Virus record (IMG/VR): IMGVR_UViG_3300027759_000046
Span: 1-64,000 of that record
From: a virus
Strand: one strand, 5' to 3'
DNA: 64,000 nt
The notes under the pieces are model-generated. The model saw nothing but the letters and a program-made list of their open reading frames with translations. It was not told the DNA's origin and made no database searches. A program made the translations under genes and the position numbers. Every line of letters begins with the position of its first letter. The stretch's first letter is position 1. This document shows positions 1-38,544 of this stretch, piece after piece.

Positions 1-234
1 TGTCGTAGGAGCTGCAGTGGTGGTTGTCGTAGGAGCTGCAGTGGTGGTTGTCGTAGGAGCTGCAGTGGTGGTTGTCGTAGGAGCTGCAGTGGTGGTTGTC
101 GTAGGAGCTGCCGTTGTCGTCGTTGTCGTAGGAGCTGCCGTTGTCGTCGTTGTCGTAGGAGCTGCAGTAGTGGTTGTCGTAGGAGCAGCAGTTGTAGTAG
201 TAGTAGTATTACCTGCCGTTGTAGTGGTAGTAGT
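1..234. repeat. 24/27-bp tandem repeat coding for AAPTTTTT
   Basis: Four identical 24-bp units lie end to end at 1-24, 25-48, 49-72 and 73-96. Two 27-bp units follow (97-123, 124-150), then further diverged 24-bp-type units to about 234. The array runs off the left edge. All unit lengths are multiples of three, so copy-number changes keep the minus-strand reading frame. Each 24-bp unit encodes five Thr, two Ala and one Pro. The near-perfect identity of adjacent units suggests recent slippage or unequal recombination. Confidence 0.9.
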
Positions 235-1827
235 GTCGTCTTGGATTGGGACAATTACTTCATACTCGCATCCACCTTTTGTAAATAAGTAAGTTCCTAC
301 AACATTTGGAATTCCTTGAAATACTGGATTTGAGACATTAAATGTCCATGGTAATTCAACCATATCTCCAATTAATCCAGTTAAAGTATGCTCTTCTGAA
401 CTTTGATCCGTAAATACGACTTCAAATGGACCAGTTGGTGTTCCATCAAAAGTTACAGAGGTTGGAAGTTCGCCAGAACCCGGTTCGTATGTGATTTGAT
501 TTGGAACGCAGGTTGTGGTTGTGGTCGTTGCCGCTGTTGTTGTAGTTGTTGTGCTTGAAGTAGTGGTTGTTACTCCAGTATTTAGAATTAAATAGAATGG
601 ACTAAACGAATCTACTTGAGCATAAATTGAACGAGTTGCATAATCTGGAATGTATAAATCTCCAGCAATATCTCCAGGATCAACAGTTTCATCGACTAAT
701 ATTCCGCTAACTTCGTGGAATATTCGGATTAGGTCAAACTCGGCCTCGCTCATGCTCTGAGGCATTGTGAATTTAATAATTGTATCAGGTGGACATACTC
801 CATCCCAGTCAGTTATCGTAAATGCATATACTGAATTTTGTAGATAAAAACCTGGAGGTAGAGAGTCTCCGCCCAAGTTATCAATTGGATTTGGTCGCTT
901 ACAGATTGTCACTGGTGCAGTACCAGACGGTGCTCCAATAATTTCAATACCGAAATTAAATGAGGTTGAGCTTGAGTCAACAATCTCAGTGCTACAAGTA
1001 TAGCCAGTTTGTGAACAGAAAGGATCTTCTGTAAAATAGTGTAATAATAATTTATCACCAGTATCTAAGTTATAACCTGCAATACTTGGGTTCCAATATA
1101 ATTGACAAGTTGAATCAGCTTCATTAAATGTAACTGCGTTTAATCCGCCGTCATTACTTAGATATGCAGGTGAAGTAATATCACCATCTCCGACCGGTAC
1201 GAGTTGACCGTTTACAAATAGCATAAATGCAGTTGCTGCAAGTGGAGCGGGTACCAAAAATATTCCATTCTCAGAAGCATTTGTATTATCTACGCTAACA
1301 TTATCTGCTGTTGCACGCATAATAACTTCTTGCATGCACTTTGCGGTTGCTGAGGCGCCATTTCCGCCTGACAGTAGAGTCCAGCCGGTTGAAACTAGCC
1401 AAACATAAACTCCTTCAATTCGATTTCCTTGAGCCGCGATATAGACAATTTCACCAGGAACGCCAGTAGTCGGTAGAGCTCCAAATACTCTTAATCTCAG
1501 ACGTAAAATCTCTGCAACATCTTCGGCTACAAAGTTTTTAGCAGTAACTGTACCACTTGGTGAAAGATTAATTACGGTTGGATAATTACCGTTCTGTAAT
1601 TGAGTGCCGTATACTGAAAGTCCTCTTCGAACTGTGACTAGATCTGACGCAACTGTGTTAATGTCTACTGAAACATCATTCGTAGATTGATTATAATTTA
1701 TTGATGATAAGAACTCCTTAATCGCAGAAGTTATTTCACCAAAATTAAAATTGGAGAGCTCAACTAGTGATGTTGTGCTAGAATTAGATAGTTTTTTAAC
1801 CGATGTTAGTTTGACTTGTACTGCCAT
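1..1827 (-). CDS. Thr-rich fibre-like virion protein, cut by the left edge
   Basis: An open frame runs from an ATG at 1827 leftwards off the window without a stop; 609 codons are visible and the C-terminus is missing. The first ~400 residues are ordinary mixed sequence beginning MAVQVKLTSVKK. Further on there are several threonine stretches, near residues 420-450 and again from about residue 530 to the edge. The last part is a tandem AAPTTTTT octapeptide repeat. Long Thr/Pro/Ala linkers are typical of extended, exposed virion fibres. A late-type box (1852-1860) lies 24 bases upstream, which fits a structural gene. No enzymatic domain is recognised. The tail-fibre or fibre-attached adhesin role is inferred from composition and from the neighbouring tail genes. 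Confidence 0.75.
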   Translation of the reverse strand, partial: MAVQVKLTSVKKLSNSSTTSLVELSNFNFGEITSAIKEFLSSINYNQSTNDVSVDINTVASDLVTVRRGLSVYGTQLQNGNYPTVINLSPSGTVTAKNFVAEDVAEILRLRLRVFGALPTTGVPGEIVYIAAQGNRIEGVYVWLVSTGWTLLSGGNGASATAKCMQEVIMRATADNVSVDNTNASENGIFLVPAPLAATAFMLFVNGQLVPVGDGDITSPAYLSNDGGLNAVTFNEADSTCQLYWNPSIAGYNLDTGDKLLLHYFTEDPFCSQTGYTCSTEIVDSSSTSFNFGIEIIGAPSGTAPVTICKRPNPIDNLGGDSLPPGFYLQNSVYAFTITDWDGVCPPDTIIKFTMPQSMSEAEFDLIRIFHEVSGILVDETVDPGDIAGDLYIPDYATRSIYAQVDSFSPFYLILNTGVTTTTSSTTTTTTAATTTTTTCVPNQITYEPGSGELPTSVTFDGTPTGPFEVVFTDQSSEEHTLTGLIGDMVELPWTFNVSNPVFQGIPNVVGTYLFTKGGCEYEVIVPIQDDTTTTTTAGNTTTTTTAAPTTTTTAAPTTTTTTAAPTTTTTTAAPTTTTTAAPTTTTTAAPTTTTTAAPTTTTTAAPTT

Positions 1828-1851: not shown

Positions 1852-1860
1852 TTATTTATT
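1852..1860 (-). promoter_or_regulatory. Late promoter-like box AATAAATAA
   Basis: The minus strand reads AATAAATAA, 24 bases upstream of the ATG at 1827. The core ATAAATA equals the T4 late promoter core. The box overlaps the stop codon of the upstream gene. Confidence 0.6.
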
Positions 1861-3208
1861 ACTTTTCTTCAATATCTCGAGTTTTTAGCTCTTTCAAGAA
1901 CTCTGTTTTTGAGTCTACTTTGCAATTTAAGGCAACTGTACCTGATCTAATGATACATTCGTTAAGATCTCCGTAAATTACATGACCTGGTTCGCTTTTA
2001 ATGTAGCTTAGGTCAAGACGATTGCGACCGTCTCTTTCAAATGTGCAATATTTAAGGTAAGAATATCGAATATCGTTACCGGTTATGATTCGTGCCTCAC
2101 GTAGATGAGACGATCTTACTTTACAGCCGTAAAATGTGCAATTTGTTAATTCCCCTTCTACTGAACAGTTAATAAAGTCAACATCACTTACTGAAAAGCT
2201 CTCTTTTAGGCGAGCATCTTTTATTTGAATGCGTTTGGCTTGAGTATCGTAGTTAACAATGCCTTTTTTAAGATTACCGGTAGTAATCAGCTCAAATAAT
2301 TTCTCTTTTATATTAGAATAATTTGATTCAACGATTCGTGGATCATTTCTAAGGTCAATGTATAGTTCAATATCCGGATATGTATTAATAAAGCTCTCAT
2401 AAGTTTTAACTGATTGTAATAATGATTTGTGTTTAGTTAAAATCTCAGAAATTCTACGAGTTTCATTAACTGTGTATACATGATTCTCTTGTAAAGTTGA
2501 ATATAGACTCTCGGCCATGTAGTTAATTAACTCAACTGAGTCTTTTTTCTTGGTTTCGTAGCCGGCTCCTCCTGCATATCGGACTTCTAGATAATTTTGA
2601 GATAACTTTGTGAAATTTATCCCAAAATACTTTGCATGAGGTAGGTTAAAATCAGTTGGGCTTGCTGGATATGCGTAATTTAGGCTTGTTTCAGCAATAA
2701 ACTTATTTTTAGGATAGATGTTTAAGACTGAGTTTTTATAGATCTTCTGCATTCTTGATTTGGCAGATGGCCACATATCAAAAATCTTAGATTCGTCTAA
2801 ATTTAAGATGTACTTGAAAACATTTAAGTTTTGAAGACGCTCAGTTAAGTCTAGATCAATTTCATTAAATGAAATATTGACATGAACTCCAGTCCTTTCG
2901 GTTGTAAACCCGTGTTCAGCAATAAAATTATAGATTTTAAACATTACATGAACTGCTTCGTTATACGGCATAACTCCGGTTACCAGCTCGTTCATTCTAA
3001 AACCGCCTGAGAAATCCGGTTCAATTTTAAAATCGTTTTCGGCAACTGGCATGTCAGAATGGTACTGATCAGTCCATTGCACGTTCTTTTTTAGAACCTT
3101 TGTAAGTTTTTCCGAAAGTTCCTTTCTGCTTAACGGCGAAAAGAATTCAAATTCGAATCCCAAATTCACGTTATCAAATAGGCGTTTCTTGTTTATATCT
3201 TTATACAT
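1859..3208 (-). CDS. Putative amidoligase (COOH-NH2 ligase fold) with pentapeptide-like C-terminal region
   Basis: The 449-aa protein has the order of motifs seen in glutamine-synthetase-fold amidoligases (the Amidoligase_2 type). These are an N-terminal GFEFEF (Glu19, Glu21), a central GVHVNIS (His109, Asn111) and YLEVRYAGG (Glu208, Arg210). That family joins a carboxyl group to an amine using ATP. Residues ~340-430 are rich in short beta-strand-like repeats with regularly spaced Cys, Phe and Leu (for example NCTFYGCKV), suggesting a small right-handed beta-helix like pentapeptide-repeat proteins. The gene lies between two large tail proteins on the same strand, so the enzyme may modify or be carried on the tail. 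A late-type box lies only 4 bases before the ATG. The family call rests on motif reading; the substrate is unknown. Confidence 0.5.
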   Translation of the reverse strand: MYKDINKKRLFDNVNLGFEFEFFSPLSRKELSEKLTKVLKKNVQWTDQYHSDMPVAENDFKIEPDFSGGFRMNELVTGVMPYNEAVHVMFKIYNFIAEHGFTTERTGVHVNISFNEIDLDLTERLQNLNVFKYILNLDESKIFDMWPSAKSRMQKIYKNSVLNIYPKNKFIAETSLNYAYPASPTDFNLPHAKYFGINFTKLSQNYLEVRYAGGAGYETKKKDSVELINYMAESLYSTLQENHVYTVNETRRISEILTKHKSLLQSVKTYESFINTYPDIELYIDLRNDPRIVESNYSNIKEKLFELITTGNLKKGIVNYDTQAKRIQIKDARLKESFSVSDVDFINCSVEGELTNCTFYGCKVRSSHLREARIITGNDIRYSYLKYCTFERDGRNRLDLSYIKSEPGHVIYGDLNECIIRSGTVALNCKVDSKTEFLKELKTRDIEEK

Positions 3209-3226: not shown

Positions 3227-5311
3227 TTATCGGTTTATTGCTATAAATGGTACATTCAATCGAGGTCTGGCATTATCAATTATGGCTAGAGTAGATTCAT
3301 CTCTAATGAATAATTGACTCACTATGAATTCATGATCTTCGCTCTGGATCATTGTATTAAATAGTCTAACATTTGCAATTGAATAATTTGCACTAGGTAA
3401 ACACCAAGTTGCAGTGGTTTCAAATTCAAAGGTTCCAGTCGTAACAATATTTGAATTGGGGTTTAGTGGCACAATCTTATTGAAGTTCTTGATATTTGCT
3501 GGATCTTGCCTAAGTTCATACACATTTATTTCAAATTGACCGAACTGAGCAGAGATTGGAATGATGATTGGATACCATTTTGCGTATTCAATTGTTCCGA
3601 TCGGCTGACTGTATTCTTGATCATTTATTGTTATCTTAATGCTTAAATTAGGCGTACCTGATGCGTCAGCTATGATTGCCTGGATGATTAATCCTTTGCG
3701 GTCATAATCATCATAACCTCTAAATAGCGTCACATCCTGATCACCTCTGTTAAAATTAACTAGTGCAGAGAAAGTCATGTTTGGAGTCTCAGCAGTTGAG
3801 GCTTGTCGCTTGTAGACAACTGCATTCTCGGCCTGTTTAAAATTAACAATTCCTGAGCCTGAAGTAGTTTCAAGAATTGGTCTGCGTTCAGATGCCTTAA
3901 GGCTTAGCGTTTTATAACCCTCAACGATTACGTACTTTTGACCAGTATGCGGCGGCGCAAAGGACTCTTTTGGGCCATTCATTTTAATTCTGGCCTTGTT
4001 AGGATTAAGATCGGCAATATTAATATCACCTGTAACCAATTGATTTTGTCTCCAAGTTTTAAAAATATTGCTATCATCGTATGCATAAATTTCTCCGTCT
4101 GGCGAAAGTTCTTGCGCATCTGCTCCATTTGATGAAGTTAATGTGTATGGAACCAATTGCGGACGAATTGCACTCATATCATAATAGTATTCAATTAATG
4201 GAGCGTAATTAAATGTGATATCTAATATTTTGCTCTTGATATCTGGATGTAGAGTCTTTCGGACCTCATCAAATCGGGTAGAAGCGGTTGAAAATTGTTG
4301 TTTATCTAATGCGTCCTGTTTTTGAACCTTAGCCTCTGCTCCAAATAACTGTTCAGAACTCATAATGATATTGTCTAAGAAAGTTCTGTCATTGGCTTTC
4401 ATTAGCATATCAATATTGGGATGGAATTTGGTTAATTGAATTTTCCAATAAATTGGCTCCATCATAAATCCTCTGTATAGGTACGAACCTTGAATCTCGT
4501 ACATACGATTAACTAGAGGAAAGAAGAGATAGTCTCTCTTTCTAGGCTGCGAGCCTTTACCGAACATCATTTGAAAATAAGTATGATCAACATGAATTTC
4601 AAATGGAACTTCAAAATCAACTCCGAACTCTGTAAAATTGGGTTTGTTATCTGGAAACTTATTATCTGGTACCATTACCTTGATACACTTACGTTCAGTT
4701 GTTTTAAATAGAGTCCATTCTTTAAAGATAAAATCGCCGCCGTCTCTATCTGGTTCTGTTTTAAAATAGACAACCTCGTGTCCAAATATTTTATTGGTCT
4801 GTAGGCTTAATTCGTGTGCAATACCGGTTGCTGTACCAACCTCATAGGGTTTAAATGAGGCTTCGCGCTCAGCAATTATTACTGGACAGCGCTCATCTGA
4901 ACAAGAAACGGACGGGGTAAATAATTGGTCTTGAGGTTTGGTGCTCTCGACTCTGATCTTAACTTCATTGACTTTTAGCTCAGTTGAGAGAGCATCGTAT
5001 GTTGTATCGTCGTACTCATACTTCACTTCAAAAAAGACATTGGATTCCGCGAAGACTAACGTAGGTAAATCGCCTAAGTCGTCTGGCGTAAATGAGTACC
5101 AAAGAGACCAGTTTGATCGGTCGTTTGAATATCTTAACTTTCTGATAATATTTGCTGGATTTGCCGAGCCTAGGTCCAGGTCCTCATCGAAAGCTGTGAT
5201 TTTTACGGCTTTCTCTAGAGGTTCACCAGTTGAAAAAATTCGATAATTTTTTGAGAAACTTATTGAATTCTTGGCTGGATCAGTTATAATTTTATAGGCT
5301 ACTACTTGCAT
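3227..5311 (-). CDS. Large tail/baseplate-type virion protein (unknown)
   Basis: The frame is open up to a TTG at 5362. I choose the ATG at 5311 (MQVVAYKIITDP), giving 694 aa, because AGAAGGG lies just upstream and a late-type box (5328-5336) lies 16 bases upstream. The sequence is beta-rich, with several short Ig- or lectin-like stretches, no signal peptide and no membrane segment. Residues ~480-640 look like a LamG/concanavalin-type sandwich (repeated F-x-F strands around a WYPIIIPIS segment), but this is a weak impression. It sits in the minus-strand run of tail genes. No T4 counterpart is recognised; a baseplate or fibre component is inferred from position only. Confidence 0.7.
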   Translation of the reverse strand: MQVVAYKIITDPAKNSISFSKNYRIFSTGEPLEKAVKITAFDEDLDLGSANPANIIRKLRYSNDRSNWSLWYSFTPDDLGDLPTLVFAESNVFFEVKYEYDDTTYDALSTELKVNEVKIRVESTKPQDQLFTPSVSCSDERCPVIIAEREASFKPYEVGTATGIAHELSLQTNKIFGHEVVYFKTEPDRDGGDFIFKEWTLFKTTERKCIKVMVPDNKFPDNKPNFTEFGVDFEVPFEIHVDHTYFQMMFGKGSQPRKRDYLFFPLVNRMYEIQGSYLYRGFMMEPIYWKIQLTKFHPNIDMLMKANDRTFLDNIIMSSEQLFGAEAKVQKQDALDKQQFSTASTRFDEVRKTLHPDIKSKILDITFNYAPLIEYYYDMSAIRPQLVPYTLTSSNGADAQELSPDGEIYAYDDSNIFKTWRQNQLVTGDINIADLNPNKARIKMNGPKESFAPPHTGQKYVIVEGYKTLSLKASERRPILETTSGSGIVNFKQAENAVVYKRQASTAETPNMTFSALVNFNRGDQDVTLFRGYDDYDRKGLIIQAIIADASGTPNLSIKITINDQEYSQPIGTIEYAKWYPIIIPISAQFGQFEINVYELRQDPANIKNFNKIVPLNPNSNIVTTGTFEFETTATWCLPSANYSIANVRLFNTMIQSEDHEFIVSQLFIRDESTLAIIDNARPRLNVPFIAINR

Positions 5312-5327
5312 TCGACCCTTCTTTTTG

Positions 5328-5336
5328 TTATTTATC
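5328..5336 (-). promoter_or_regulatory. Late promoter-like box GATAAATAA
   Basis: The minus strand reads GATAAATAAC, 16 bases upstream of the ATG at 5311, followed by the ribosome-binding sequence AGAAGGG. It also lies inside the alternative N-terminal extension from the TTG at 5362, which argues against that start. Confidence 0.6.
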
Positions 5337-5361
5337 GCAGAGTTACCTGAATTACTTCGCA

Positions 5362-5370
5362 AATAAATAA
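5362..5370 (+). promoter_or_regulatory. Late promoter-like box AATAAATAA
   Basis: The plus strand reads AATAAATAA, 19 bases before the ATG at 5390. It is the only box on this strand within the first 25 kb and serves the only plus-strand gene there. It lies about 26 bases from the divergent minus-strand box. Confidence 0.6.
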
Positions 5371-5389: not shown

Positions 5390-6187
5390 ATGAAATCACT
5401 TAACCCCTTGCTGGTTTTGGATCCTACATGGATCTGCCAAGCATATAAAGTTGACCTGGAGTACTACACGTACCTTTTACTTGGTGCTCAGCAGACTTAT
5501 CTTAAGGGCCTTGAATCCGGTCGATTCGATCATTTTTATGAAATTGTTTTTCATTACCTAAATCTTAATACAATTATTGCAGATAGTAAAATATACGATT
5601 CTGGTCTTAAACCGGTTACTGCTGACCATAACTTACTGTTATTAATTAGCCAGCTAGCCGAGAAAGAAGACAGTCAAGGCAAGGAGATCATTAGAGAAAC
5701 TTCAAAGATTTTTGCAGATACTATGAATACGTACTTAGATAAGCTGATAGTTAGCCTTGATAAGATTCATTTTTATTTTAATAATAACTGGATTCACAAA
5801 CAGGATTTTATCTATTTTGTGTGTAAAACAATTGAGCCAGATCATTATGAAATTGTTAAACTTGATCTAAAGGACTCTCACAATTTTGGGTACTCAGTCT
5901 GTACAGTAGCAGAGGTTGAATTGCCTGGGCTTAAAGAGAATCAGTTTAAAGATCGTCTGCTTAAAAAATTACCTGAGCTCAAGGATTTTGATCCTGAGAA
6001 AAATGTGATGGTAATTGGTGGAGGAGTCAATATTGATCCAGTTAATCGAGTTTGTCTTGCGAAGGACACAGTTCTACTTAACCGAATTATGAATCATCAA
6101 CACGGATTTGACGGTAATGTTCTACTAGACTTTCACAGGTTACTAGAAAAGCAGAAGAGCATTCCCTTTAAATTAAAGATGAATTAG
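5390..6187 (+). CDS. Hypothetical protein, lone plus-strand gene in the tail cluster
   Basis: This 265-aa protein is not recognised. It is mixed alpha/beta with no signal peptide and no membrane segment. The N-terminal half is helical and leucine/tyrosine-rich; the C-terminal half contains the segment NVMVIGGGVNIDP. It is the only plus-strand gene in the first 25 kb, and its stop is 4 bases from the stop of the convergent fibre gene. A late-type box sits 19 bases upstream, so expression with the structural genes is likely. It could be a tail assembly factor or chaperone made at the same time as the fibres; this is inference from context. Confidence 0.7.
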   Translation: MKSLNPLLVLDPTWICQAYKVDLEYYTYLLLGAQQTYLKGLESGRFDHFYEIVFHYLNLNTIIADSKIYDSGLKPVTADHNLLLLISQLAEKEDSQGKEIIRETSKIFADTMNTYLDKLIVSLDKIHFYFNNNWIHKQDFIYFVCKTIEPDHYEIVKLDLKDSHNFGYSVCTVAEVELPGLKENQFKDRLLKKLPELKDFDPEKNVMVIGGGVNIDPVNRVCLAKDTVLLNRIMNHQHGFDGNVLLDFHRLLEKQKSIPFKLKMN

Positions 6188-25443: not shown

Positions 25444-25887
25444 TTAAATAGTGTAGATCTCGCTCTCACCTGTAAAGCTCAACGAAACAAATTCAACTTT
25501 TTCACCCTTACCGATATGTTTGTAAATTTTCTTGTATTCTTTAGCGTATCCATTCTTTGCAATTTGTGTGAAATATGCAAAAGCGTTGTTGGATTTCTCT
25601 TCGTTAAAATTTCTCCAATATCTCAGTAGATCAAGTAGCGCCGACTGAATACAATCTTCTTTGTCTAGCGGATTTGAGAAAGTTAGTTTTAGGATAGCTC
25701 GATTTGCTAGTAGTATAAAGTACTCTACTGCTCTCGGTGAAAGCTCACCAGCTGTGTGTTGGTAGCCAGTTTCTTCGTTTAAGTGCCCGTGTTTACATCG
25801 AATGATCTCATTTGTGAAATCTCGATTATTTATGTAGTACTTGCTCTGTTTTGCTTTACTTAGTGGTTTAACTACTTCAGTTGACAT
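25444..25887 (-). CDS. 55: gp55-like sigma factor for late transcription
   Basis: This 147-aa protein resembles T4 gp55, the sigma-family subunit that directs RNA polymerase to late promoters. The N-terminal KYYINNRDFTNEIIR matches the T4 pattern YNYVNNKELLQAI. Residues ~73-120 (DCIQSALLDLLRYWRNFNEE, then FAYFTQIAKNGYAKEYKK) correspond to the sigma region 2-like core with its D-G/E-A and N-A-Y-F/I-TQ motifs. It is shorter than T4 gp55 (185 aa) and lacks the C-terminal SLDFLY-type tail that T4 gp55 uses to bind the sliding clamp. It lies just upstream of a late-type box, and the boxes across the window fit its expected recognition sequence. It is one base from the resolvase gene, so the two are co-transcribed. 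Confidence 0.8.
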   Translation of the reverse strand: MSTEVVKPLSKAKQSKYYINNRDFTNEIIRCKHGHLNEETGYQHTAGELSPRAVEYFILLANRAILKLTFSNPLDKEDCIQSALLDLLRYWRNFNEEKSNNAFAYFTQIAKNGYAKEYKKIYKHIGKGEKVEFVSLSFTGESEIYTI

Positions 25888-25888
25888 G

Positions 25889-26557
25889 TTAATTTGGTTC
25901 TTTTAGGGACTCGTGTATTTTTAAAACAGCTAAGTAGGAGTCAATCATGTCCATAAATGGTGATTTGACCTCTTGTTTTTTAAGTATTAGATCTTCATAC
26001 TTATTTATTGCATTGTGTAGATCGCTGTTGATTGCGAGTCTTGGGTTTTCTTTAAAAGTTTGGTATACGTCATACTTACCGGCATTACCTTTAGCGCCAA
26101 TTGCATTCTTTAGCTCTCCTGGTGAAAAAATGAATAGCTTTTCGCTATGGCCATTTAGTAATCTGTCTAATAAGGCTTTTCTCATCATACCGGTTGACTG
26201 TGCAATATCTAATAGGGCATTACCTTGGGCGCCGTACGCAATTCCTTCAATAGAAACTATGACACGGTCATCATTTTTCACATGCGCTAATATCTGAGTG
26301 ACGAATGTATCGACTAGAGTTGAATAGTTAGAAAGCTTTGACCTTTCAATTGCTGAATAGGTATCTTGGCCTTTCTCTCTAGCTGGTAAATGAACAAATT
26401 TTAGATTTTTGAACTCAAGTTCAGTATCATCTAGGAACTTTTTATGGATTTTAGTGGTATTAGTATTAACACAGGCCACCCAGTTGAAACTTTTAAAGTC
26501 TCTACTGATGCATGCTGCAGGATACTGTATCGAAAAATCTATTCCAATGATGATCAA
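25889..26557 (-). CDS. RuvC-like Holliday junction resolvase / RNase H-fold nuclease
   Basis: The 222-aa protein has the acidic pattern of RuvC-type nucleases. These are Asp7 in IIGIDFSIQ, Glu104 in VSIEGIAYGAQG, and a C-terminal DMIDSYLAVL helix with two Asp. The segment SPGELKNAIGAKGNAGK is typical of RuvC relatives (the substrate-binding loop before the last acidic pair). It probably resolves branched DNA before packaging, the job done in T4 by endonuclease VII, which is an unrelated fold. The start is a TTG at 26557; an in-frame stop lies two codons upstream and no ATG is available. It is the first gene of the minus-strand unit leaving the divergent region and lies one base from the sigma factor gene. 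Confidence 0.75.
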   Translation of the reverse strand: MIIIGIDFSIQYPAACISRDFKSFNWVACVNTNTTKIHKKFLDDTELEFKNLKFVHLPAREKGQDTYSAIERSKLSNYSTLVDTFVTQILAHVKNDDRVIVSIEGIAYGAQGNALLDIAQSTGMMRKALLDRLLNGHSEKLFIFSPGELKNAIGAKGNAGKYDVYQTFKENPRLAINSDLHNAINKYEDLILKKQEVKSPFMDMIDSYLAVLKIHESLKEPN

Positions 26558-27554: not shown

Positions 27555-29135
27555 ATGAAAGAAATCATTTTTAAGACTGACGCTAGGACTCAGTTAGGTA
27601 ATGGAATTAATGCTCTAGCTGAAGCCGTTAAAGTGACGTTAGGCCCTCGCGGTCGTAATGTTGTTATCTCTAGGGATAATAGTGTTGCTATAACTAAAGA
27701 CGGTGTAACAGTTGCTAGAGAAGTACATTTAGAAAATCATTTGGAAAACGTTGGAGCCCAAATGGTAAAACAAGTTGCAAATAAAGTAGCACTTGAAGCC
27801 GGAGATGGAACAACCACCGCAACAGTATTAGCGCATGCTATCTTTACTGAAGGTAATCGTCTTGTTGTTGCAGGAACCCATCCAATGGAATTAAAAAAGG
27901 GTATTGAGCTTGCATCCAAGCAAATCATTGAAAATCTTCGTTCACAAGCAATTAAGGTCGAAGATTTTGAACAGATTAAACAGGTTGCAACAATCTCTGC
28001 AAATAACGATGAGGAAATTGGCCAAATTATCGCGGACGCAATGGAAGCGGTAGGATTCGATGGAATTATCACAACCGGTGAAAGTAAAACTGGCGAAACC
28101 TACGTTGAAATTGTTGAAGGAATGCAATTCGCTAACGGCTACTTATCTCCGTATTTTATTAATACAGATAAGTCAACGGTTGAGTTTGAAAAACCTTTAA
28201 TTCTATTGTACGATGGTCGTATTTCAAACTTACAAGACTGCTTACAATACTTAGAGCACTCAAACAAGTCAATGAGACCTCTACTTATTATTGCTGAAAG
28301 TGTTGATGGCGAGGCCTTAAATACTCTTCTAGTCAATAAGATTAAGGGAACCCTCAGAGTTGCTGCAATTAAATCTCCAGGATTTGGCGAGCAACGCAAA
28401 TTAAAATTAGATGATATTGCGATCTTAACTGGTGCAAAAACCATCTCAGAAATTGAGGGCCAAACCTTAAAAGAGTCAATTGCTGCAAATTTCGTAGGTA
28501 GCTGTGATCGAGTTGTAATCTCAAATGATTCAACCATGATTATTGGTGGACACGGAAGCAGTTCTGCAATTGAGACACACGTTGCGGACCTAAAATCTCA
28601 AATTGATAATTTAGATGACGAATCCAAAAAGTTAATTCTTAAAGAACGCCTTTCTAAATTCCAAGGCGGAGTTGCTATCATTAAAATTGGTGCAACTTCC
28701 GAGATTGAAGCTAGAGAAAAATTTGATCGTATTGATGATGCCCTTGGTGCAACTAGATCAGCTGTTTCTGAAGGAATTATCCCAGGAGGCGGTATTACAC
28801 TAGCCCTAACGGCTGACTCATTAACTCTATCATTACCGAATCGTGATCAACAATTGGGTGTTGAGCTTTTAAAGAAAGCATGCTCCCAACCATTCCGCGT
28901 AATCTTAGAAAACGCAGGCCTTAGTCCAGACGTTATCTGGAATGAAATTAAATCAAAGGGTCTAGGCTTTAACGTTAAAACTGAAGAATATGTTGACATG
29001 ATTAAGGCTGGAATTATTGATCCAGTTAAAGTTACAAAAACTGCCCTAGAGAACGCTGTATCAATTTCAGCTCTTCTATTGACAACTGACTGCCTAATGG
29101 TACAAAAACCCCAAGTGAACTCACAAGTTCAATAG
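27555..29135 (+). CDS. groEL: Chaperonin GroEL (Hsp60)
   Basis: The 526-aa protein is a full-length group I chaperonin. It keeps the equatorial ATP site ([11 protein letters not shown] near residue 30 and [11 protein letters not shown] near residues 84-94), the apical substrate-binding region (~180-370) and the returning equatorial motif [14 protein letters not shown]. The usual GGM-rich C-terminal tail is absent; it ends in VNSQVQ. It would assemble into rings that fold proteins inside the host, in phages most often capsid proteins. A GroES-like partner is encoded ~13.6 kb downstream. It follows the exonuclease gene and is closed by a strong terminator (29157-29197). I see no truncation or missing ATPase residues. 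Confidence 0.97.
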
Positions 29136-33787: not shown

Positions 33788-34969
33788 ATGGAAAACAACC
33801 AATTCACGACCGAAGAACTTGATGCTCTATTCAGTCAATCGACATCGAAGTACAACACTACAATCAAATTAACTGAAGCTGACCGTAGAGCTGGCGTAAA
33901 GATTTTATGTAAAGAGCCCTATGCTCAAGAATTATATGATCTCTATTCTAGATTCGAATCAGGTTCACCAATTACATCAAAAGACTTTACCGAAGGTCAA
34001 TTATGTACAGTTATCGCAAAGAGTATTGATTTTGACGGTAAGATGATTATTGCAGATGAGAAATTCTCAAAATCAACAGTTTACATTCCATTTAGAGAAT
34101 TTACAGAAGAGCCATCATTATTACTTAATGACGGAGACCTACGAGAATTTAAAGTAGTTATTACTAAAGCAACTGCTGGAGACTATGTTGGATCTGAGAA
34201 GAAATGCGCAGCGTTTACTTATCGTGAAAACTTAAATAGCTTCATGAAGGACGAAAAATGGTTCTACGTAAAAGTTGTTAGCTTAGTAAAAGGCGGATAC
34301 CTTGCTCTATATAAAGGAACCGTTAAATGTTTCTTACCTGGATCTCATGCAGCAGCCAACGTAATTAGAGACTTTAATGAGTACTTAAACACTGAAATTC
34401 CAGTTATGATTGAGAATTTTGATGCAACAAATGACCTGTTCATTGTTTCTTACAAGAAGTACATCAAACACACATTACCTCAAAAAGTATACGAATTGGA
34501 ATTCGGTAAAGAGTACAAAGGTATCTTAACCAATAAACCATACGATTTCGGTATCTTTGTTGAATTCCAAAATTACTACACAGGTTTAATCCATAAGAGC
34601 GAATTTGAAAATTATGCAGAATTTGCAGAAGGTCGTAAATCAGGCGATGAGATTTCATTCTACATCAAGGATATTATCATCAAGAAAGGAGAACCTCGTA
34701 TTGTGTTAACCGACACACTTGATAAAGTAGATTACGAAAAAATTCAATGGCAAAGTCTAAAAGATAGAGTTGAAGGTCACACCCTAAACTTTACGTTAGA
34801 CAAAGAAGACTTTTCAATTGAATTGGAGATGCCAGACGAAGATATTGTCTTCAGAACTGACGTAAGTCACCTTAAGGGCCGAATCCGAATACCTAATGAA
34901 GGCCAGGTGAAAATCCTACGAGTTGATACCTTTAGAAAAAATTTAAAATTTGATTTCTTACAAGCTTAG
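33788..34969 (+). CDS. S1-domain RNA-binding protein
   Basis: The 393-aa protein contains two recognisable S1-type OB folds. One is near residues 155-225 (EKWFYVKVVSLVKGGYLALY, then GTVKCFLPGS). The second is near 235-310 (FGKEYKGILTNKPYDFGIFV, then YTGLIHKSEF and RIVLTDTLDKVD). Degenerate OB-like strands lie on both sides, at ~65-125 and ~330-390. S1 domains bind single-stranded RNA, and ribosomal protein S1 brings mRNA to the 30S subunit. A phage copy could steer translation or protect RNA. The first 30 residues contain an acidic helix (TTEELDALFSQ). It stands alone between the 1,493-aa gene and the small ORF at 35001. The function is inferred from the fold. Confidence 0.75.
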   Translation: MENNQFTTEELDALFSQSTSKYNTTIKLTEADRRAGVKILCKEPYAQELYDLYSRFESGSPITSKDFTEGQLCTVIAKSIDFDGKMIIADEKFSKSTVYIPFREFTEEPSLLLNDGDLREFKVVITKATAGDYVGSEKKCAAFTYRENLNSFMKDEKWFYVKVVSLVKGGYLALYKGTVKCFLPGSHAAANVIRDFNEYLNTEIPVMIENFDATNDLFIVSYKKYIKHTLPQKVYELEFGKEYKGILTNKPYDFGIFVEFQNYYTGLIHKSEFENYAEFAEGRKSGDEISFYIKDIIIKKGEPRIVLTDTLDKVDYEKIQWQSLKDRVEGHTLNFTLDKEDFSIELEMPDEDIVFRTDVSHLKGRIRIPNEGQVKILRVDTFRKNLKFDFLQA

Positions 34970-36135: not shown

Positions 36136-38544
36136 ATGAAAGTAATAAAAAGAGATGGCCACGCAGAAACTCTGCGCCTTGATAAAATAACTAACCGTAT
36201 CAAGAAACAAACTTACGGATTAGACACAGACCATGTAGATGCCCTTGAGGTTGCAACGAAAGTTGTATCAGGCCTATATGACGGAATTAGCACAGAAAAA
36301 CTTGATAGCCTTGCGGCCGAGACATCGGCTGCACTAGCCTACATTCACCCAGACTATTCAATCTTAGCTGCACGAATAGCAATCACCAGATTACATAAAA
36401 CAACTACTAAATCGTTTAGTGATACGATTGAACACCTTTACACCTACATCGATCCAAAGACTGGCCAGAATGCCGGCTTAATTTCAGACGAAACGTATGC
36501 AGCAGTTAAGAAGAATGCAAGTACTTTAAATGAGGCAATCATTCATGATAGAGATCTTAATTTCGACTATTTTGGTTTCAAGACCCTCGAGAGAAGTTAC
36601 CTATTAAAAACTAACGGTCAGCCTGCTGAATCCCCACAACATCTTTACATGAGAGTTGCGGTTGGAATTTGGGGCACAGACGTTCAAAATGTCCTAAAGA
36701 CATACGAACTCTTGTCAACTCATCAAATGACTCACGCAACACCTACTCTATTTAATGCAGGTACAAAACGTCCACAATTATCTTCATGCTTCTTATTAAC
36801 AATGCAAGAAGATTCAATCTCTGGAATTTACAAGACCTTAACTGACGTTGCTGCAATTTCGCAAAACGCTGGAGGAATAGGTTTAGCCATTTCAAATATC
36901 CGAGCAACAGGTTCTTACATTAAAGGAACTAACGGTACATCAAATGGTATTGTGCCAATGCTTAAAGTATTCAATGAAACAGCTAGATACGTTGATCAAG
37001 GCGGCGGAAAGCGTAAAGGTTCATTTGCAATCTATTTAGAGCCATGGCATGCCGATATTGAAGACTTCTTGGAATTAAGAAAGAATCACGGTAAAGAAGA
37101 ACGTCGTGCAAGAGATTTATTCTTGGCGTTATGGACACCAGATCTTTTCATGAAACGTGTTGAAGAAGATGCAGATTGGACTCTATTCTGTCCTGCTGAA
37201 ATCAATTGCGAACTTTGGGAAATGTACGGCGAAGAATTTGAAAAGAATTACATTCGTCTTGAACAAGAAGGAAAAGGACGCCACACAGTTAAGGCCAGAG
37301 TTCTTTGGCAAAAGGTGCTAGAGGCTCAAGTTGAAACCGGTACACCATACATCCTATTTAAAGATGCAGCAAACATCAAATCAAATCAAAAAAATCTAGG
37401 TACAATCAAGTCATCAAACTTATGTACTGAAATTATTGAATACACGTCAAAGGATGAGCAAGCTGTATGTAACTTAGCGTCAATTCCAGTAAATCAATTT
37501 ATCAATATTGGAAAACGTTCAGGTAAATTAAGAAAACCTCAATGCGATTATAATTTTACAGAATTGTATGAAGTTGCATATCAAACTACTCTAAACCTAA
37601 ATAAGGTAATTGATGTAAACTACTATCCAACTGTTGAAACTAAAAATTCAAATGTAAAGCATCGACCTATCGGGATCGGAATCCAAGGATTAGCCGATAC
37701 ATTTGCAATCATGGGTTACGAATTCAGTAATGATGAGGCTAAGAAATTAAATAGCGATATTTTTGAGACTATTTACTTCGCGGCAATGGAAGCATCAATT
37801 GACCTTGCTAAAAAAGAAGGATCATACGAGTCATATCAAGGTTCTCCATTAAGCCAAGGCCAATTTCAGTTTAATCTATGGGGAGTAAACGAATCTGAAC
37901 TATCTGGACTTTGGGATTGGACCGCTCTTCGCAAGAAATTAATGAAGTGGGGAGCTCGTAACTCTCTATTGCTTGCTCCGATGCCAACCGCTTCAACTGC
38001 TCAAATTATGGGTAATAATGAAGCCTTTGAACCATTCACTTCAAATATTGGAACTCGTAGAACTCTTGCTGGCGAATTTATAGTAGTTAACAAACATCTA
38101 GTTAAAGATCTAGTTGAATTGGATCTATGGAACGAATCTATGCGAAACCGAATTATCAGCGAAAAGGGCTCTGTCCAAAATATTCCAGAAATTCCAACTG
38201 AAATTAAAGCAATCTATAAAACCGTTTGGGAGATCAAGCAGAAAGATCTAATTGATATGGCAGCTGACCGTGGCAGATTCATCTGTCAATCACAGTCTCT
38301 AAATATCTTTATTAGAGATGTTAATACTGCAAAGCTTACATCAGCGCACTTCCATGCATGGAGAAAAGGCCTAAAAACCGGTATGTATTACTTACGAACA
38401 GAAGCTGCTTCTTCAGCAATTGCCTCGCTTGGATTAGATTTTAACGCAAAACCCGAAATAAAGCCTGTCGATATATTGGAAAACCTGGATGACATTACCT
38501 GTTCTCTAGATAACCCAGAGGATTGCATTGCATGTAGTTCATAA
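36136..38544 (+). CDS. nrdA: Ribonucleotide reductase class I large subunit (NrdA)
   Basis: The 802-aa catalytic subunit starts with an ATP-cone ([20 protein letters not shown], residues ~1-90), the allosteric activity site. The catalytic barrel contains [18 protein letters not shown] and [11 protein letters not shown], which include the redox and radical-site cysteines and the catalytic N-x-C-x-E. The C-terminal DCIACSS provides the CxxC pair that is re-reduced by thioredoxin or glutaredoxin. With NrdB it makes dNDPs for phage DNA synthesis. A rho-independent terminator (38575-38601) follows. It has the length of bacterial NrdA and no missing domain. Confidence 0.96.

Follow-up and report, generated by a model that had tools for sequence, protein, structure and literature searches.

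An amidoligase-family protein fused to pentapeptide repeats and encoded among the structural genes of large phages

Modification of peptidoglycan, in cooperation with GATase, ATP-grasp and GGCT partners, has been proposed as the role of known phage-encoded amidoligases (PMC5498523, PMC10580990), and the genes that make up the corresponding cassette have been listed (PMC3890496). We analyzed a 64,000-nucleotide stretch of DNA (the window) that forms part of a virus record of 253,137 bases and encodes a protein of the same enzyme family. The protein and its relatives resemble the known phage Amidoligase_2 (phrog_2443) proteins, among them UFV-P2 ORF23, SU10_086 and LAh9_60, in the order of their motifs and in predicted fold class. 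They differ in that known phage amidoligases carry an H-x-H motif whereas the window family carries H-x-N (or Q-x-S), and in that the window family ends in C-terminal pentapeptide repeats, which were not noticed when eight known amidoligases were aligned. The setting of the gene differs as well: several known phage amidoligases are found within a cassette of GATase, ATP-grasp and GGCT genes, whereas the window gene has a neck/baseplate neighborhood and no cassette was detected.

Pentapeptide-repeat (Rfr) domains are built from tandem A(D/N)Lxx-type repeats that form a quadrilateral helix. Qnr, MfpA and AlbG act on gyrase, and both Qnr and MfpA are strongly acidic DNA mimics.

The amidoligase gene and its family

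The gene occupies positions 1859-3208 on the minus strand, begins with ATG and encodes 449 amino acids. Open reading frame analysis, family profiles and AlphaFold2 together divided the product into an amidoligase domain, a helical linker and a pentapeptide-repeat domain. A previous reading of the window (the sequence-only reading) had reported a putative amidoligase here, and its gene was a real open reading frame with exactly the bounds given. The Amidoligase_2 (glutamine-synthetase-like) domain spans approximately residues 12-245 (2474-3175, minus strand), as indicated by the PF12224 match of a relative and by hhalign. It is followed by a connecting region at approximately residues 246-329 (2222-2473, minus strand), which is predicted to be largely helical from the AlphaFold2 secondary structure (helices at 247-309). 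The pentapeptide-repeat domain, a right-handed quadrilateral beta-helix, covers approximately residues 330-425 (1934-2221, minus strand) and was recognized by Pfam in relatives, a PDB profile, AlphaFold2 and Foldseek. The gene is present in a single copy within the 253 kb record.

In a Pfam search the 449-residue protein alone matched neither PF12224 nor any other amidoligase model, and single-sequence searches of Pfam, PHROGs and PDB returned nothing useful. Matches to SpoIIP (0.008) and Disaggr_repeat (0.03) were below the cut-off and were dropped. Three of 11 family members matched PF12224, with a best value of 8e-7. The proteins of G002-G004, which come from 270 kb records and are 62% identical to the window protein, scored 30.9 bits over model positions 3-225 of 245, and the G005 protein scored 22.9 bits; the curated gathering cut-off of PF12224 is 22 bits. 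Membership of the window protein in PF12224 thus rests on close homology, since the sequence itself has no profile match and its 62%-identical relatives pass. The family profile was also compared by hhalign with eight known phage amidoligases (from Pseudomonas, Escherichia, Aeromonas, Proteus and Vibrio phages and one uncultured Melvirus), and the two aligned from the E74 region on with an E-value of 6.7e-6 and a probability of 84.7%. No solved amidoligase structure was found in the PDB by sequence search with the known amidoligases. The gene is a variant of a known enzyme family, Amidoligase_2, and the sequence-only reading had recognized the class correctly: a close relative passes the PF12224 cut-off, the motifs align with those of known phage members and the predicted fold is of the glutamine synthetase type. 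That reading had named a profile search and a fold check in advance; a close relative matches the profile and the fold fits, but the window protein itself misses the profile.

Conserved motifs, predicted fold and repeat domain

Residue conservation was counted over 121 distinct family members. Residues G17, E19, E21, D65, S67, E74, E139, K193, Y194, N198, E208 and R210 were invariant in all 121, and all six motif blocks aligned in order with the eight known phage amidoligases. Motif 1, G17-x-E19-x-E21 (G17-F-E19-F-E21 in the window; 3146-3160, minus strand), is the same in known amidoligases, and by analogy with glutamine synthetase we presume that E19 and E21 are metal-site glutamates. Motif 2, F-K-x-E-P-D65-x-S67-G-G...E74-L-x-T-G (2975-3031, minus strand), also has invariant G68 and G78, and its aligned counterpart in known phage amidoligases is D-G-S-L-R...E. 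Motif 4, E139...R152 (2753-2794, minus strand), retains R152 in 120 of 121 members and corresponds to E...R in known members. Motif 5, K193-Y-x-x-x-N198 (2615-2632, minus strand), is matched in known members by an invariant Y, mostly in a K-Y-x3-N context. Motif 6, E208-V-R210-Y-x-G-G (2567-2587, minus strand), takes the form L-E-[FVI]-R across the family and G-x-x-E-[FY]-R in known phage amidoligases. The E-x-E, H-V-N and E-V-R motifs pointed out in the sequence-only reading are therefore present in the order it gave, and their conservation across 121 members shows that they did not arise by chance.

Motif 3, H109-V-N111-I-S113 (2870-2884, minus strand), has an invariant S113. Position 109 is H in 94 of the 121 members and Q in 27, and position 111 is N in 95 and S in 26. 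The combination Q-x-S replaces H-x-N in L062-L091 (the Q-S clade), L167-L170 and L151, with the other presumed catalytic residues kept; these members are essentially one clade plus L151. In known phage amidoligases the motif reads H-x-H within an R-x-x-x-H-x-H context, and because the His corresponding to H109 is invariant among those aligned, the sequences suggest that the Q-S subclade may have altered chemistry.

An AlphaFold2 model built with 61 sequences had a pLDDT of 85.9 and a pTM of 0.78, and it predicts a glutamine-synthetase-like fold. A Foldseek search of the PDB returned, in rank order, glutamine synthetase (8.8e-5), type III glutamine synthetase, bifunctional glutathione synthetase and gamma-glutamylcysteine synthetase (1.7e-3). 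The TM-scores of these matches were low (0.2-0.3, with 0.28 for glutamine synthetase) at 10-13% identity, so they are evidence of fold class and not of the same enzyme. The window protein shares with glutamine synthetase and gamma-glutamylcysteine synthetase the fold class and the order of ExE, H-x3-S and ExR, which we take to be glutamine synthetase signatures. Against BFVD, proteins named 'Amidoligase enzyme' were matched at 1e-12 to 1e-10. The top BFVD match, A0A6J5PQ40, an unannotated protein of 439 residues from an uncultured Caudovirales phage, aligned over its full length (TM-score 0.91, 34% identity) and appears to be another member of the window amidoligase family.

The C-terminal region is a pentapeptide-repeat domain. 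Pfam PF13599 matched seven of 11 family members (best 5.6e-6), PF00805 was also found in relatives, and the family profile matched designed and natural pentapeptide proteins in the PDB at 4e-6 to 2e-5. The AlphaFold2 model showed short, evenly spaced strands from 333 to 422 with a pLDDT of approximately 90. Compared with shuffled sequences, a hydrophobic period of five was modest in the window protein alone (p ~0.01) and had p <= 0.0006 in six of 10 sampled relatives. The domain matched MfpA, Qnr, AlbG and HalA by profile, and the first three also by fold, with MfpA, QnrB1 and AlbG as Foldseek matches. Unlike these proteins, it is only about 95 residues long, near-neutral and fused to an amidoligase. 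Its net charge is 0 in the window protein, with a family median of -3 and a range of -8 to +3, and this near-neutrality weakened the idea of an acidic, gyrase-binding DNA mimic of the Qnr/MfpA type. The repeat region that had been noticed at residues ~340-430 was real, and its description as a beta-helix-like tail can be refined to a pentapeptide-repeat domain. The fusion had been called unusual; this was supported, but the same two-part architecture of amidoligase and pentapeptide repeats occurs in hundreds of large phages and is not a one-off.

Distribution, selection and gene neighborhood

A first scan of IMG/VR identified 11 close relatives, and tblastn found relatives at 31-34% identity in six records of uncultured phage genomes of 460-735 kb. 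Scanning with an alignment as the query detected relatives in 433 viral stretches, and a second, differently seeded scan detected them in 366. Among 84,980 species genomes there was one cellular match, L181, on a 254 kb contig of an uncultured Bacteroidetes MAG. This is probably a phage contig that was binned with a Bacteroidota host, because the sizes and order of the surrounding open reading frames resemble a window-type locus. The amidoligase gene is under strong purifying selection. Relative to the 97%-identical L003, dN/dS was 0.026 for the whole gene, 0.013 for the catalytic part and 0.045 for the repeat part; only this pair was used because more distant pairs were near or beyond synonymous saturation.

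Directly upstream of the amidoligase gene, across a gap of 18 bp, lies a gene for a neck protein (T4 gp14-like, head closure Hc2) at 3227-5362 on the minus strand, with matches to phrog_679 (8e-8) and PF11649 (7e-4). Each of the 27 window-type loci in which a gp14-like neck gene was detected had it in this position, mostly no more than 25 bp away, and two had gaps of approximately 310-350 bp. Downstream, after 31 bp, a co-oriented gene at 1-1827 (minus strand) runs off the window and encodes a large protein with Thr/Pro-rich repeats, including a long TTTTTAAP-type tract at window positions 1-300; its position is conserved in window-type relatives. A fibre-like open reading frame and very long open reading frames follow, and together with the gp14/Hc2 match they make the original placement of the gene inside a tail gene cluster a fair one.

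In the Q-S clade the next gene encodes a head-tail adaptor (phrog_211) and is followed by gp25-like and gp6-like wedge genes; Ad2 neck, gp25 and gp6 genes lay within 3.5 kb in all 13 Q-S loci with sufficient flanks. In a large third clade, the biggest, the nearest neighbors (clusters 0 and 1) had no clear family, cluster 2 alone matched tail-sheath/baseplate-wedge families, and lysis-type domains were also present. An assignment of clusters 0, 1 and 2 to gp6 and gp25 by size and order was unsupported by hhalign. Overall, a neck or baseplate gene was found within 4.5 kb in 59 of 70 loci with sufficient flanks, a count that reflects conservation along the family tree, as the loci are not independent. 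No such gene was found nearby in eleven well-flanked loci, including that of the 735 kb phage L014.

The peptidoglycan-modification cassette, which links GATase, a second COOH-NH2 ligase, ATP-grasp and GGCT genes, was seen in L092 and L174. Searches for GATase_6, GGACT, COOH-NH2_lig and RimK detected none of these in the 253 kb record (G000) or in its relatives G001 and G002 (252-271 kb), an absence that is not proof because the 253 kb record may be incomplete. In the positive controls UFV-P2 and SU10, GATase_6 and COOH-NH2_lig were detected and RimK was below the cut-off.

Several other features of these loci were recorded. Within the structural cluster, but on the opposite strand, a gene at 5390-6187 (plus strand) encodes a 265-residue protein that belongs to no known family. 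This gene is kept near the amidoligase gene in seven of eight window-type loci with good flanks, and in L059, a locus with no neck gene detected nearby, a homologue lies two genes downstream of the amidoligase gene; it is a possible functional partner. A large gene (cluster 3; L012, L016 and L108-L153, for example L109:7411-9045) whose N-terminal part has a DHH-phosphoesterase-like match lies within 3.5 kb of the amidoligase gene in 39 of the 63 loci from the other clades. The window also encodes, at 33788-34969 (plus strand) and 30 kb from the amidoligase gene, a homologue (8.8e-60) of a protein family whose S1-domain member adjoins the amidoligase gene upstream in the Q-S clade. A T4 gp55-like late sigma factor (25444-26557, minus strand; phrog_234, 2e-17) adjoins a RuvC-like resolvase (phrog_159, 1e-8). 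The T4 late-promoter octamer TATAAATA occurred twice in the window against seven expected occurrences and was not informative. A GroEL-like chaperonin (27555-29135, plus strand) and a ribonucleotide reductase large subunit (36136-38544, plus strand) are likewise phage-encoded.

Possible roles of the enzyme

The reading we favor, tentatively, is that the protein is an ATP-dependent ligase of the virion-assembly program whose repeat domain docks a protein target, likeliest a neck or baseplate protein. It builds on the observed family, fold, architecture, conservation and neighborhood, from which we infer catalysis, the docking role and the target. By homology, the amidoligase domain would bind ATP and divalent metals at a site formed by ExE, D-S-E, H and ExR. 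A carboxylate, whether on the side chain of Glu or Asp or on a free amino acid or peptide, would be phosphorylated, and an amine would then attack the activated carboxylate to give an amide or isopeptide bond. The most likely function of the pentapeptide-repeat domain would be to offer a rigid surface on which a protein partner docks and is brought to the active site. The enzyme's most likely target would be a protein of the neck or baseplate, which it would modify or cross-link as the virion assembles, and we consider this the weakest step. Such a target is favored because the gene is co-oriented with the neck gene and immediately behind it, and because relatives in divergent large phages mostly lie near neck or baseplate genes. 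The sequence-only reading had suggested that the protein may cross-link or decorate tail or capsid proteins or act on the host wall. The conserved neighborhood favors a role in the virion over one at the host wall but is not proof, and late expression, instead of a virion substrate, may account for it.

A role at the host wall would have the enzyme place unusual amide links on peptidoglycan peptides and so block competing phages (superinfection exclusion), like the phiEco32/LUZ24-type amidoligases. Such a role is the published hypothesis for the known phage amidoligases whose partners are GATase, ATP-grasp and GGCT (PMC5498523, PMC10580990), and GATase_6 is present in two related records, those of L075 and L078. 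We nevertheless find it unlikely for the window protein: the tested partners were undetected in the record and its 252-271 kb relatives while the controls were positive, the gene lies in a structural cluster and not in an early metabolic cassette, and the pentapeptide domain suggests a protein partner. That partner could belong to the host, with the ligase adding an amino acid or peptide to a target bound by the repeats, for example gyrase as with Qnr and MfpA. The presence of Qnr, MfpA and AlbG among the solved-structure matches is consistent with this, and modifying host proteins post-translationally has been proposed as a strategy of jumbo phages (PMC7824862). The repeat domain is, however, short and unlike acidic Qnr and MfpA in charge, and the location of the gene among structural genes further argues against a host target, which we likewise consider improbable.

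Auxiliary metabolism, in which the enzyme would make gamma-glutamyl or amide compounds or help with nitrogen metabolism, has been proposed for the Phage-ZRK32 cassette (PMC10945688), and the proteins of known function that are closest in fold, glutamine synthetase and gamma-glutamylcysteine synthetase, act on small molecules. For the window protein it seems very unlikely, as it leaves the conserved pentapeptide domain and the neck/baseplate neighborhood unexplained and none of the tested pathway partners was found. The change of the motif-3 His to Gln in 27 of 121 members, nearly all in one clade, would suit an amidoligase descendant that has lost catalysis and serves as a structural or assembly scaffold. 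The remaining presumed catalytic residues, however, show no or almost no variation, and purifying selection acts most strongly on the catalytic domain; we regard a dead scaffold as highly improbable.

The virion-assembly reading can be extended to a specific and more doubtful proposal, namely that the enzyme, guided by its fused docking domain, forms amide or isopeptide bonds non-ribosomally on the neck or baseplate, as an ATP-driven covalent step in the assembly of contractile phages. Such a step would be enzymatic and ATP-driven, in contrast to the HK97-type capsid cross-link, which is autocatalytic. Should the virion indeed be what the enzyme acts on, it would be a ligase dedicated to the covalent finishing of the neck or baseplate in contractile phages, and one that is widespread among large and huge phages. 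No description of a stand-alone, pentapeptide-fused amidoligase type linked to structural genes was found in the literature searched. Even if the enzyme does not act on the virion, phage amidoligases split into a cassette type and this stand-alone type, and the existence of two types argues against assigning all phage amidoligases to cell-wall modification.
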